Assembly (NCBI GenBank): GCA_029862745.1 | Contig: JAOTWS010000006.1 | Coordinates: 1-64,000, forward strand | Direction: 5' to 3' | Length of the DNA stretch: 64,000 bases | Source: Nitrosopumilus sp. | GTDB lineage: Archaea; Thermoproteota; Nitrososphaeria; Nitrososphaerales; Nitrosopumilaceae | Shown: in pieces, positions 41,907 through 46,558 of the stretch | How positions within the stretch are numbered: position 1 is the stretch's first letter | Layout: every line of letters begins with the position of its first letter | Program-made: the position numbers and the translations under genes | The notes under the pieces: model-generated | The model's database searches: none | Told to the model about the DNA's origin: nothing | The model's input: the letters and a program-made list of their open reading frames with translations, nothing else

Positions 41907-43453
41907 GTTTGTGAGCGCATAAATTGTTGCAAGTAATGTTCCCCACCAGCTCCTTTTCCAGTAATTCCAGAGCTTTTCCAACCAACAAATGGTTGACTTT
42001 GTACAAGAGCAGCAGTAGTTGCACTTGATTCTCTGTTTGCATATACAGTTCCTGCTTGAATTTTTTCGAAGAATTTGTTTATTTGATTTTTATCCTCTGA
42101 AAAAATTCCTGCAGTTAGGCCATATTCAGATTTATTTGCTAAGGTAATTGCTTCATCAAAATCATCATAAGTATCAATGCACAAAAAAGGCAAAAACAAT
42201 TCTTCAGTCACAAGTTTATGATCTTTTGGAAGATCAGTGACAATAGTTGGCTGAACAAAATAACCATTTTCACACTCCGAATTGGTAATTTTGTTTCCAC
42301 CAAAAATTATTTTGCCATCTTTTTTTGCAAGATTTACGGCATTTTCAAATTTTGATATAGAATCATTGTTAATTACTGGACCCAAAAATGTTTCACGATT
42401 CCAGGGCATGCCAATCTTTAATGAAGCACTCTTTTCAATAATTTTTTTGAGAAACTGTTGAGAAACATTCTTTTGCACATAAACGCGAGAACATGCACTG
42501 CATTTTTGTCCCCCAAATCCAAATGCGGCACGCATCACACCTTCAGATGCTTTGTCCAAATCTGCATTGTTTGTAACAATTACAGGGTTTTTTCCGCCCA
42601 TTTCAGCAATGAATGGTTTTGACGTTTTTTTTGTGAATTTTTTGAAACCCATCATCCCTACAGCTTGAGAACCAGTAAATGCAATACCATCAATATCGTT
42701 ACTTTCAATGAGCATTTTTCCAACAACAGTTCCATCACCAGTAACAAAATTAATCACACCTTGCGGCAGTTTTTCAACAATAGATTCAATAAAAAAGTAT
42801 GAAGATAACGGAGTTGCACTTGCTGGTTTTAGTACAGCGGTATTACCAGTAAGCAACGCGCCAGTTGTCATTCCTATTGCAATTGCAGATGGAAAATTAA
42901 AAGGAGAGATTATTCCCCACACTCCATAAGGCTTGAGAACAGTCCTAGTTTTTTCATGAGGGTTTGGGTGAGGAGTTTGTTTACAAAACCCCTCATTTTT
43001 CTCAAGTTGGAATGAGTAAAATCTCATAAAGTCAATTGCCTCATCCACATCATTTATTGCCTCAATTCTGGTTTTTCCATTTTCAAAAGACATCCAGGCT
43101 GCCAATTCAAACTTTAATTTAGAAAATTCATTAGCAGTTTGTTTAAAAATATTAGATCTCTTTTGATACGATACATTACTCCATTTCTCAAAAGCATTTT
43201 TTGCAGAAGTTATGGCTTCTTTTGTTTGTGATTCATCAATTTTTGGAAAAGTGCCAAGAACAAGTCTAGTATCAGACGGAGACCTTACATCAAAAGTGTT
43301 TTCTGAGAAGACTTTTTTGCCATTAATTATGCACGGATATTGTTTCCCAAATTTTTTTTTAATACACGTTACAGCATCATCAAATTTTTTATCAAATTCA
43401 TCTTGTTTTCCTTGGGATACTGCATTGCCCCAAGTATATTCATTTTCAAACAT
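41888..43453 (-). CDS. 1-Pyrroline-5-carboxylate dehydrogenase (ALDH family)
   Basis: 521 residues. NAD-binding ALDH features: SPFNFPSAIA, GNTAVLKPAS, FTGSQAVG, the general-base Glu in AEMGGKNPVIV, and the catalytic Cys in FGGQKCSACSRVY. The second Cys and the Arg nearby are typical of the P5CDH subgroup. Oxidises P5C (glutamate semialdehyde) to glutamate. Together with the facing proline dehydrogenase it allows proline catabolism. ATG start at 43453. Confidence 0.93.
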   Translation of the reverse strand: MFENEYTWGNAVSQGKQDEFDKKFDDAVTCIKKKFGKQYPCIINGKKVFSENTFDVRSPSDTRLVLGTFPKIDESQTKEAITSAKNAFEKWSNVSYQKRSNIFKQTANEFSKLKFELAAWMSFENGKTRIEAINDVDEAIDFMRFYSFQLEKNEGFCKQTPHPNPHEKTRTVLKPYGVWGIISPFNFPSAIAIGMTTGALLTGNTAVLKPASATPLSSYFFIESIVEKLPQGVINFVTGDGTVVGKMLIESNDIDGIAFTGSQAVGMMGFKKFTKKTSKPFIAEMGGKNPVIVTNNADLDKASEGVMRAAFGFGGQKCSACSRVYVQKNVSQQFLKKIIEKSASLKIGMPWNRETFLGPVINNDSISKFENAVNLAKKDGKIIFGGNKITNSECENGYFVQPTIVTDLPKDHKLVTEELFLPFLCIDTYDDFDEAITLANKSEYGLTAGIFSEDKNQINKFFEKIQAGTVYANRESSATTAALVQSQPFVGWKSSGITGKGAGGEHYLQQFMRSQTQTLCD

Positions 43454-43491
43454 ATCTATGATTAGAATTTGTTGAATTTAAAGTCACAATA

Positions 43492-44331
43492 TTATTTGAC
43501 TGAGGATATTACCTCACCAATCATCCTAGATGCAAGATGAGATGTTCGATTGTTGATATCATATGTAGGGCACACCTCTACTAGATCCATTCCCAGAATG
43601 CCTTTGCCTACAATTTTTTTGAGAAGATAGATTGCATCTACACTAGATATACCCATAGGTACAGGAACAGAGACGCCAGGTGCATGAGAAGGGTCTATAC
43701 AATCCATGTCAAATGAGACATATACCGAATCTCCAATAATGTCAAGTATCTTTTGAGATATTTTAGAAATGGATTTTTCTGCAATATCAAAAGGTGTTAT
43801 GAGATGTATTTGATGTTTTTTTAGGTTATCCAATTCCTCTTGTTCAGGAGTTCTAATTCCAATTTGAACACTAGTTTCTTGTTCAATACAATCTAAAACA
43901 TCCCCAAAAACAGAGCCATGGTAATTCTTAGTTGATGTAATAAAATCAGGATGAGCATCAAAATATACCAAAGATATTTTATTTGATTTTTGTGCAAGTT
44001 GTTTGATAATCTGTGAGCTCATGGAATGGTCACCGCCTATAGATACGGGAATTTTAGAATCAAAAAATATTTTTTCAAATGTTTGTGGAATTTTATCTCT
44101 AGCAATATTACCATAATCAAAGACATTTTTGGAAATCCCATTCGTTGGAAGTCCAATGGATTTTTTTTCATCTCTCATGTAGGAATCTACAAGATTGGAG
44201 GTTTTTCTTATTTGATCAGGAGCCCTTGAAGTTCCTTCTCGTAGTGAATGAGATTTGGATTCATCAGGAATTCCAATTATTACAATATCACTATCAAGAT
44301 ATTGTGAATTGTTCCAACATATTTTTTCCAT
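43492..44331 (-). CDS. Agmatinase/arginase-family ureohydrolase
   Basis: Binuclear Mn enzyme motifs are all visible: IGGDHSMSS, YFDAHPDF and SFDMDCIDPSHAPG. Start chosen at ATG 44331 (MEKICWNNS); the frame is open to 44376 but the extra residues are atypical. About 280 residues, the agmatinase size. Substrate is inferred: agmatine to putrescine, or a guanidino group on modified aIF5A as reported for haloarchaea. Tail-adjacent to P5CDH on the same strand. Confidence 0.88.
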   Translation of the reverse strand: MEKICWNNSQYLDSDIVIIGIPDESKSHSLREGTSRAPDQIRKTSNLVDSYMRDEKKSIGLPTNGISKNVFDYGNIARDKIPQTFEKIFFDSKIPVSIGGDHSMSSQIIKQLAQKSNKISLVYFDAHPDFITSTKNYHGSVFGDVLDCIEQETSVQIGIRTPEQEELDNLKKHQIHLITPFDIAEKSISKISQKILDIIGDSVYVSFDMDCIDPSHAPGVSVPVPMGISSVDAIYLLKKIVGKGILGMDLVEVCPTYDINNRTSHLASRMIGEVISSVK

Positions 44332-44455
44332 CAGTTTAATGTAGCACACATAGATAATAATTTGATTTGTTTGCAATCACGTTGGCAATACAGTTTTCTT
44401 TCAAAAGAAGTTTTAGAAAAATGAATGAACAAATGTTTAGAAATTTCATATTACA

Positions 44456-44463
44456 TTTTAAAT
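44456..44463 (+). promoter_or_regulatory. TATA box of candidate structured RNA
   Basis: TTTTAAAT centred 24.5 nt upstream of about 44484, just before a perfect 6-bp hairpin. No ORF of merit starts there, so the promoter would drive the RNA described at 44484-44610. Confidence 0.45.
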
Positions 44464-44483
44464 ACATCGAAAACATTAAGGTA

Positions 44484-44610
44484 ATTGATGTCGTCAGACA
44501 TCCAAGACAAAGAATAGACTGCGTAGCCCTGCAGAACAAAAATGGCGTTCAGGACACTGACAAAGAGAGGAAATCTCTCAAAGTTCTGCGAATATAGGGT
44601 TACGCCATAA
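44484..44610 (+). ncRNA. Candidate structured non-coding RNA, about 125 nt
   Basis: A TATA box lies 24.5 nt before the proposed start. The 5' hairpin is GATGTC-GTCA-GACATC (44487-44502). The main stem is GCGTAGCCCT (44521-44530) with AGGGTTACGC (44596-44605), nine Watson-Crick pairs and one G-T. It continues as GCAGAAC (44531-44537) with GTTCTGC (44583-44589), with a six-base 3' bulge between. The 45-nt interior contains a small GAGAG/CTCTC hairpin with a purine loop and a CACTGAC box. No known class (tRNA, 5S, RNase P, SRP) fits. Structure is by eye only. Confidence 0.55.
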
Positions 44611-44681
44611 TATATCAATCAAGCGCACAATACAAAAAATTGAAGTGTTTAACTAATCTGATAAAAATCTAATCATGATAT

Positions 44682-45389
44682 TTGAAATTACAGAATTATT
44701 TCTTTAAATATCTAAATCAATGGGATGTTTTGTTGGGGCTAAGAGAACTAGATCTTAAAGAGGAATATAGATCAGATAGAGATGATATTGTTGCAGAGTT
44801 TTTCCTTCCTTGTCTAAGCAATTGCGTAGAATATGATAGATGTGTTGATGTTTTATCAATTCATACACTAGTTAGAATATCTATGGCATTTGATAATTTC
44901 GCCCAAGGTAAAGCAAAATTAAGGATGATAACAGGTCATAGATTCAGAGCATCAGAATTAACTTTGCTCACAAAACTCTTTTCTGAAAAAGAAATAAAAA
45001 CATTCAACAATAAATTAATTAAAGATTCTAAAATAAAAAAAGTAAAAAACATCATAGATAATGAACAAGTAGAAATAAAAATTGCAATTCCAAATTCAGA
45101 ACAGATATCAGATTCATTCTCAGAAAGAATAGGAATTTTTAAAGACGCGCATGGTGATGTAGTTGCATTTACTGGAACTTCAAGAGGAACAGTACCTACT
45201 CAAACTAGAGATTTTGAATCAGTAGATGTTTTCACATCATGGAATGACCAATCACGTGTTGAAAGAAAGATGAAAGATTTTGAAGATCTTTGGCAGAACA
45301 AAACAAAATATGTTGAAGTGTATGATTTTAAGTATGCAGAAAAAAATAATCTTCTAAAATATTCATCCGAATGGATTATGCATGATTAA
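44682..45389 (+). CDS. Free-standing phospholipase D-like domain protein
   Basis: 235 residues from TTG 44682. The C-terminal block GIFKDAHGDVVAFTGTSRGT, then FESVDVFTSWND and DFEDLWQNKT, matches the PLD-like N-terminal domain usually fused to DEAD/DEAH or Snf2 helicases. The HKD catalytic motif is not apparent and no helicase follows. It may be a nucleic-acid-binding or nuclease-like module acting in trans, or a helicase remnant. The end overlaps the endonuclease gene by 4 bp (convergent). Confidence 0.72.
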   Translation: MKLQNYFFKYLNQWDVLLGLRELDLKEEYRSDRDDIVAEFFLPCLSNCVEYDRCVDVLSIHTLVRISMAFDNFAQGKAKLRMITGHRFRASELTLLTKLFSEKEIKTFNNKLIKDSKIKKVKNIIDNEQVEIKIAIPNSEQISDSFSERIGIFKDAHGDVVAFTGTSRGTVPTQTRDFESVDVFTSWNDQSRVERKMKDFEDLWQNKTKYVEVYDFKYAEKNNLLKYSSEWIMHD

Positions 45390-45985
45390 ATATTGAGTGG
45401 TTCATCTAAGCCAGACTTGTTTTCATTAAAATTAATTCTATTAATTTTATAATAGATTACTTCACCACGTCTCTCAATTACTGCAATAATTGGTTCTTTT
45501 CCCATTTGAGTTATCTCTTCAATCTTTTTCTGAAGGATTCCCATTTTTTCTTGCTGTCCTTCATTAAGACCAAAGACTAGAAACTTTGCACCTTTTTCTC
45601 CAAACTGTCCTCGTTCATAAACTCTAAAATCAAAACCAAAGCCAAAACCGTCTTTTACAACATATCCTCGGTTACGGAGATCACGATAAATCAGGAATTT
45701 AGTAAGGATTTCAGAGTCAATTTTATGACAAAGACCCATAAAAGAATCAAAATCAATCTGCTTTTTTCCTTTCTTTAAAATCAGTCTTTTAGTGTATAAC
45801 AGATAAAGAGTTTCAAATGATTGTAAAAATAATTTTTCATTTTCAATTTCTCCAAACCCCTTAAGATCTAGCTCGTGTATCATGGTCTTATCTGAGATAC
45901 ATGCTTGATCGGAAATTAAATTGCCAGTTACTAGTAGAGGTTCTTCCACGGTAAAGAGAAAATCAAGTGATTTCCATATAAGCAT
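45386..45985 (-). CDS. endA: tRNA-splicing endonuclease subunit (EndA family)
   Basis: About 199 residues from ATG 45985 (GTG 46006 possible). The C-terminal catalytic-fold block YRDLRNRGYVVKDGFGFG, then DFRVYERG, is clear and retains the Tyr. The usual HAK/HSK catalytic His is Gly here (EKGAKFLV) and the usual Lys near the end is not obvious. It therefore looks like the structural subunit of a heteromeric enzyme; a catalytic partner should be encoded elsewhere. Divergent from the L10e gene. Confidence 0.8.
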   Translation of the reverse strand: MLIWKSLDFLFTVEEPLLVTGNLISDQACISDKTMIHELDLKGFGEIENEKLFLQSFETLYLLYTKRLILKKGKKQIDFDSFMGLCHKIDSEILTKFLIYRDLRNRGYVVKDGFGFGFDFRVYERGQFGEKGAKFLVFGLNEGQQEKMGILQKKIEEITQMGKEPIIAVIERRGEVIYYKINRINFNENKSGLDEPLNI

Positions 45986-46048
45986 TGGAATGCATGAATG
46001 AATCACTGACTAACCGTTAAAATATGGGTTTTCTGGTTTGAGGTTATA

Positions 46049-46558
46049 ATGCATGGTGCTAATTATAGAGAAGGACGTGGACAAGTGTTTACTAGAAAGG
46101 AGTACATCAAAGGTAAACCACAAATTAAAATTGCAAAATTTCAAGGCGGAAAAAGAGCAATATACGAGCATTGTGTTCAATTATTACTAAAAGAGAAATT
46201 ACAGATTCGACATATGGCAATTGAATCAGCCAGATTAGCAGCCAACAAAACATTAGAAAAAACAACTGGTGAATTAGGCTATTATTCGCGACTTAGAATT
46301 TATCCACATAATCTTCTTAGAGAAAATAAACAAATTGCAACAGCAGGTGCAGACAGAGTTTCAGAAGGAATGAGAAGATCATGGGGCAAAGCTACTAGTT
46401 TGGGAGCCAGAGTAAAACAAGGACAATGTATTATGGAGATGTTTGTTAATGGAGATGCTCACGTACAAGCTGCAAGAAAAGCACTTCAAGGTGCTTGTGT
46501 AAAATTACCAGGAACCCCATTGATCAAAGTGATCGAGTGGAAGAAAATATCACCATAA
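46049..46558 (+). CDS. rpl10e: 50S ribosomal protein L10e (uL16)
   Basis: 169 residues with archaeal L10e features: MHGANYRE start, FTRKEYIKGKPQ, QIRHMAIESARLAANK, and the glycine-rich GMRRSWGKATSLGARVKQGQ loop. It sits near the peptidyl-transferase centre and the 5S/tRNA region of the large subunit. ATG start at 46049. The 3' end overlaps the convergent 87-aa gene by 9 bp. Confidence 0.96.
   Translation: MHGANYREGRGQVFTRKEYIKGKPQIKIAKFQGGKRAIYEHCVQLLLKEKLQIRHMAIESARLAANKTLEKTTGELGYYSRLRIYPHNLLRENKQIATAGADRVSEGMRRSWGKATSLGARVKQGQCIMEMFVNGDAHVQAARKALQGACVKLPGTPLIKVIEWKKISP

Follow-up and report, generated by a model that had tools for sequence, protein, structure and literature searches.

A multi-copy structured RNA of the Nitrosopumilus family with a conserved mini-ORF just ahead of its main stem

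The Nitrosopumilus family includes some of the most abundant archaea of the ocean. The 64,000-nt stretch of Nitrosopumilus sp. DNA analysed here (referred to as the window) harbors, between positions 44456 and 44610, an element that an initial annotation, made from the letters of the sequence, had put forward as a promoter-equipped and possibly lineage-specific structured RNA of no recognised class, perhaps serving as a regulatory or guide RNA. The locus raises the question of whether such an RNA is indeed encoded here and, if so, what it might have been kept for.

Fold, class and distribution of the RNA

Folding of the plus strand from 44480 to 44625 yielded a minimum free energy of –43.3 kcal/mol (z-score of –5.08), with 0 of 200 shuffled sequences being equally stable, while the minus strand of the element folded less well (z-score of –2.79). 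On this plus strand, the 5′ hairpin recognised earlier is real (P0; GAUGUC-GUCA-GACAUC, 44487–44502), and the main stem proposed from the letters proved exact, i.e., 10 pairs (one of them G-U) between GCGTAGCCCT (44521–44530) and AGGGTTACGC (44596–44605) in helix P1, followed by 7 pairs between GCAGAAC (44531–44537) and GTTCTGC (44583–44589) in helix P2, with a one-sided 6-nt bulge (GAATAT, 44590–44595) separating both helices on the 3′ side. The GAGAG/CTCTC hairpin (P4; GAGAG-GAAAU-CUCUC, 44565–44579) was likewise located correctly, and its loop G and U are invariant across 51 sequences. The presumed CACTGAC box, on the other hand, is the 3′ arm of a variable hairpin (P3; 44549–44560) that is short in the window copy, and no conserved box corresponds to it. 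The element ends in a 3′ tail (44606–44620), presumably the termination region, that is weakly T-rich in the window copy and T-rich in most others (at least 4 T per 12 nt in 133 of 142).

In an alignment of 51 diverse sequences (A3), 95.1% of the cells of P1, P2 and P4 were paired and 18 of the 21 pairs had changed on both sides. Cells with such two-sided changes numbered 95 compared to 17 in shuffles (0 of 500 shuffles were as good), and pairing fell to 35–58% when partners were slid. Across the same sequences, P3 is variable, yet forms a hairpin in most of them (mean z-score of –1.8), and a P0-type hairpin occurs in the 5′ part throughout the family (mean z-score of –2.3, with 90% below –1), albeit in varying register. 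A pseudoknot between the A-rich joiner past P2 and the T-rich tail was rejected, since its own pairs were not clearly above swapped ones (38 of 300 swaps were as good over the 51 sequences, 119 of 300 outside the main genus group and 18 of 300 inside it). Shine-Dalgarno mimicry by P4 (GAGGNAAUC, compared with the 16S 3′ tail) was also discarded, because alignment inspection indicated no selection for U and G at the two loop positions where such mimicry would require them.

The RNA is covered by no Rfam family, and its earlier description as promoter-equipped, structured and lineage-specific is supported. Rfam 15 returned nothing on the element, whether in the window stretch (E-values up to 5) or in ten diverse loci (E-values up to 1), and the matches found within 43000–46000 (SNORD79, SNORD38, DUF3800-V and KCNQ1OT1_1) lay outside the element and below their gathering scores. 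The suggestion of a guide RNA was not supported. For a box C/D RNA (C box RUGAUGA, D box CUGA), no conserved terminal D box was present in the alignments of 30 and 51 sequences, the 5′ UGAUG of the element being the ATG region and often reading UAAUG. An H/ACA RNA would have a hairpin with an internal pocket, but the stacked P1 and P2 leave bases unpaired solely on the 3′ side, and no conserved ACA follows P1. An earlier description of this RNA was not found in the open-licence literature.

A lack of homologues, or of compensatory changes in the stem, would have refuted the initial annotation, but both were found for the segment at 44482–44608, whose symmetry is far beyond chance. A DNA search revealed matches in 85 of the 95 genomes of the genus, often with 2–4 per genome, while a covariance model (R1) built from an alignment of 30 copies (A1) matched 89 of the 95 (and 56 of 56 of good quality). 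Within the window's family, R1 matched 221 of 250 genomes (127 of 131 of good quality) and 18 of 22 genera, usually with 1–4 copies per genome. A pattern scan of named genomes found the RNA in Nitrosopumilus, Nitrosarchaeum, Nitrosotenuis, Nitrosomarinus and related bins. Since it is near-universal in the family, the RNA was probably present in the family's common ancestor. Three 0.8-Mb genomes of one genus (G247, G248 and G249 of g22) held no significant copy and appear to have lost it.

A wider model (R2) gave no significant match in genomes sampled from the rest of the order and class, and its weak matches outside the family (L114–L116) were without the fold. Likewise, the core pattern occurred in four bacterial contigs (L153, L170, L181 and L191) that gave no covariance-model match.

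A conserved mini-ORF at fixed distances from promoter and stem

The earlier statement that no ORF of quality covers the element had to be withdrawn. Positions 44488–44517 of the plus strand hold a 9-codon ORF (ATG TCG TCA GAC ATC CAA GAC AAA GAA TAG, i.e., MSSDIQDKE*) whose start, frame and stop are conserved family-wide. P0 lies in its 5′ part and encloses the start codon in the window copy, and P1 begins 3 nt past its stop codon. Upstream, the TATA box (TTTAAATA) seen earlier is present, albeit at 44457–44464 rather than 44456–44463, with TAAATA beginning 29 nt ahead of the ATG. Among related copies the TATA box is usually found 27–29 nt ahead of the start codon, and TAAATA sits at exactly 28 nt in 122 of the 143 distinct copies of the main type (type I). 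Given archaeal promoter geometry, from which the transcript start can be placed by its distance to the TATA box, this spacing suggests that transcription would begin at or just before the AUG and that the message would be leaderless. Leaderless mRNAs occur in many archaea (PMC7531240).

The mini-ORF was found in all 144 distinct significant type I copies, i.e., 143 by script and one by eye (L128; TTG TTG GTA ATA CAA TCT GAC AAA TAG, with a shifted start). Its plan comprises an ATG, GTG or TTG start, 8–10 codons and a TAA, TAG or TGA stop, followed by P1. The gap from stop codon to P1 measured 3–5 nt in 50 of the 51 diverse sequences, the exception being L099, in which the stop directly abuts P1. 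When changes in the ORF were mapped by parsimony on a tree built solely from the ca. 100 nt located 3′ of it, the stop codon was estimated to have been exchanged 27 times and the start codon 6 times, next to 9 length changes, each by a multiple of three. At the stop position TAA, TAG and TGA replaced each other and no other triplet occurred, and internal stops were absent.

A single-copy relative (type II), defined by a model (R3) made from three divergent copies, was found in 108 of the 250 family genomes, spread over 6 genera. Independent covariation was seen in its core (two-sided changes in 25 of 35 pairs, 0 of 500 shuffles as good, in an alignment fitted to R3), and 68 of 70 copies possess the mini-ORF (64 by script and L272, L273, L278 and L280 by eye), nearly always with 9 codons. 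The two remaining copies (L289 and L290) have no intact ORF and a damaged P1, mini-ORF and P1 thus having been damaged together, as if they were one decaying unit.

The appearance of an ORF might alternatively be incidental and result from a conserved 5′ hairpin with AUG- and UAA-like motifs on either side, in which case the RNA would be purely non-coding and act in trans. P0 is indeed real by its energy, and one syntenic homologue (L113 of genome G113, on the reverse strand of 1501–1635; scoring weakly, with an E-value of 0.07) has CGG and TGT in place of the start and stop codons while its fold is intact, so that this lineage keeps the structure in the absence of the ORF and offers a natural test of what the ORF does. 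This lineage has therefore either lost a translated function or retained a decaying copy. A hairpin as such, however, explains neither why stops are exchanged only for stops and starts kept to ATG, GTG and TTG, nor why lengths shift by threes and internal stops are avoided, and the same pattern is repeated independently in type II. We therefore regard the purely non-coding reading as distinctly improbable. The RNA family and its mini-ORF are both real with near certainty. This conserved, presumably leaderless mini-ORF and the multi-copy spread over a whole family had both been overlooked by the initial annotation, and they make the RNA more unusual than had been supposed.

While the frame is conserved, the peptide appears weakly constrained, since 27% of the single-base codon differences were synonymous in frame, compared to a random expectation of 21% and to 15% and 14% out of frame. 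Start and stop are nearly fixed, but codons 2–9 are highly variable (each codon position having an entropy close to 1 bit), and copies encode peptides as dissimilar as MSLVTKSNE, MTIFVRAMD and MFTKPQKMA. As in dual-function sRNAs, a conserved ORF resides on what appears to be an independent small RNA, and it does so in type I and type II; the peptide side of this comparison consists of a weak in-frame synonymous excess in a highly variable peptide.

In a classical dual-function RNA, the peptide of 8–9 amino acids would itself be what is made or signalled, while the structured part would either regulate on its own or serve as a 3′ UTR with a stabilising effect. The synonymous excess is compatible with a functional peptide, and patterns like M[RQ]KD[VA]N[PS] recur in type I and type II alike. 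A precedent is found in sRNA154 of Methanosarcina mazei, proposed to be a dual-function sRNA with the leaderless 20-aa sORF_154 (PMC11456600). In the literature covered, sRNA154 is the nearest described case, since it too is a structured small RNA of an archaeon, stands alone and has a leaderless small ORF close to the 5′ end. In contrast to the 20-aa protein of sRNA154, which is described as highly conserved in Methanosarcina (PMC11456600), the Nitrosopumilus ORF has 8–9 codons, encodes a barely conserved peptide and stops 3–5 nt before the main stem, and its RNA is multi-copy and confined to the Nitrosopumilus family. Moreover, only start and stop are nearly fixed among the dissimilar peptides, and pairing in P0 likewise constrains the bases of codons 2–9. 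A peptide as the product is thus, in our view, rather unlikely.

Genomic setting and possible effects in cis

On sequence grounds, the element is a stand-alone small RNA gene of about 125–145 nt. It is usually laid out between a divergent upstream gene and a convergent downstream gene, some of the latter overlapping the 3′ end of the RNA by a few bases. The neighbors vary by locus and include an SDR gene, a DUF1246/DUF1297 protein and an arginase (the latter two assigned by Pfam), next to TFB, a CorA-like transporter and aroA/aroC (assigned by reading the sequence). Since the neighbors differ and the downstream gene is mostly convergent, a cis role is unlikely and no common cis target emerges.

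In the window, an Arginase-family gene (43492–44376, minus strand) diverges from the RNA, and a 235-aa ORF without a Pfam match follows shortly downstream on the same strand (44682–45389); this ORF resembles the PLD-like portion at the N-terminus of certain helicases, the rest of which seems to be missing. Further on lie a tRNA intron endonuclease gene (45386–46006, minus strand; both domains recognised) and then an L16p/L10e ribosomal protein gene (46049–46558). At another locus (L007), a conserved minus-strand gene of ca. 145 aa (ending in ...GSVSVDILEN*), one orthologue of which had no Pfam match, is located directly 3′ of the RNA in convergent orientation; it is syntenic with the RNA across genera, and its stop codon overlaps the 3′ tail.

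At several loci, the SDR locus among them, the end of the convergent gene lies less than ca. 10 nt from the RNA 3′ end or overlaps it, as might be expected of a 3′-end antisense or termination element for that neighbor. Nevertheless, the RNA is constant while its neighbors differ (SDR, DUF1246/DUF1297 protein, TFB, aroA, arginase), neither the ORF nor the core calls for such a role, and the downstream gene of the window lies on the same strand, making this explanation highly unlikely.

Leader-peptide attenuators and stalling leader ORFs also combine a short ORF with a stable stem 3′ of it, so that the position of the ribosome meets structure, and act in cis on a downstream gene. The short ORF, the stem and the U-rich tail of the Nitrosopumilus RNA resemble such attenuators, and in the window a same-strand ORF does follow; a cis-acting attenuator or riboswitch is contradicted at most loci, however, by a downstream gene on the opposite strand, and no run of a single amino acid was seen in the mini-ORF among the type I copies read. 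We attach very little probability to this explanation.

The multiplicity of copies also bears on their origin. The window genome holds four, i.e., one by the SDR gene (C2), one by a purP-like gene encoding the DUF1246/DUF1297 protein (C3), the window copy (C6:44483), and a divergent copy adjoining aroC and aroA (C6:112213). The window copy represents a minority subtype that few genomes possess and whose locus varies, the SDR and purP-like copies being the conserved ones. A tandem pair was observed in genome G246 (L091; 1501–1633 and 1810–1941, ca. 300 nt apart). Several copies per genome, and a subtype that changes its locus, could be the mark of a selfish or mobile repeat spreading with its own promoter. 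Against this, the main copies (at the SDR, purP-like and aroC/aroA loci) are syntenic over species or genera, covariation and ORF are under selection, and viral contigs contained no match to the core pattern, so that a mobile repeat seems scarcely probable.

Engagement of a ribosome as a candidate function

If the act of translation is conserved while the peptide drifts, the function may well be the engagement of a ribosome, as is also suggested by a mini-ORF that ends 3–5 nt ahead of the main stem. We therefore hypothesise that the RNA unites a leaderless mini-mRNA with a structured RNA of regulatory function, in which the engaged ribosome, and not the peptide, would be the functional event, a reading to which we give somewhat less than an even chance. 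Transcription would proceed from the TATA box and begin at or just before the AUG, after which a ribosome would load on the 5′-terminal AUG, open P0 and translate 8–9 codons, only to meet the stop codon merely 3–5 nt ahead of the helix in which P1 and P2 are stacked. This helix would lie 6–8 nt downstream, i.e., at the mouth of the mRNA channel, when the A site is occupied by the last sense codon. By the general geometry of the ribosome, P1 would be at the mRNA channel entrance on termination, and 27 nt of ORF would admit one ribosome. The ORF would thus be too short for two ribosomes at once, and a single one would be slowed or parked against the helix at termination. As a result, the fold and activity of the RNA could be coupled to its translation status, or the RNA could be held on the ribosome. 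Such parking is deduced from the spacing and from general ribosome geometry, and the ribosome might simply melt P1; the lineage of L113, which keeps the fold without the ORF, also speaks against this engagement model.

Other RNAs share single elements of this plan. tmRNA is a compact RNA uniting a short ORF and extensive structure. In the Nitrosopumilus RNA, the ORF is 5′-terminal with its own start codon, and ARAGORN called neither tRNA nor tmRNA genes in ten loci. Stimulators of frameshifting or readthrough place a structure few nucleotides 3′ of the decoding site, but no conserved downstream reading frame was seen in the Nitrosopumilus RNA and its pseudoknot was unsupported. In Haloferax volcanii, ribosome-occupied sRNAs have been reported, many of them without an evident protein product (PMC12482152). 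These are likewise small archaeal RNAs on ribosomes, although the sections of that report covered here do not describe a plan of fixed mini-ORF and stem.

Taken further, the RNA may represent a new class of ribosome-engaging RNA, in which a leaderless mini-ORF of fixed length and irrelevant peptide would load one ribosome and a built-in stem would hold it, a proposal we make tentatively and as clearly less probable than not. If true, the RNA could serve as a sensor of translation status, or as a ribosome-docking or hibernation RNA. Its combination of an intact frame with a drifting peptide, a fixed spacing from promoter to AUG and a stem at a fixed distance past the stop codon is unusual, and it makes directly testable the idea that an RNA is kept for the act of translation and not for its product. 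Leaderless initiation in archaea is poorly understood, and this RNA would offer a compact natural probe of it.
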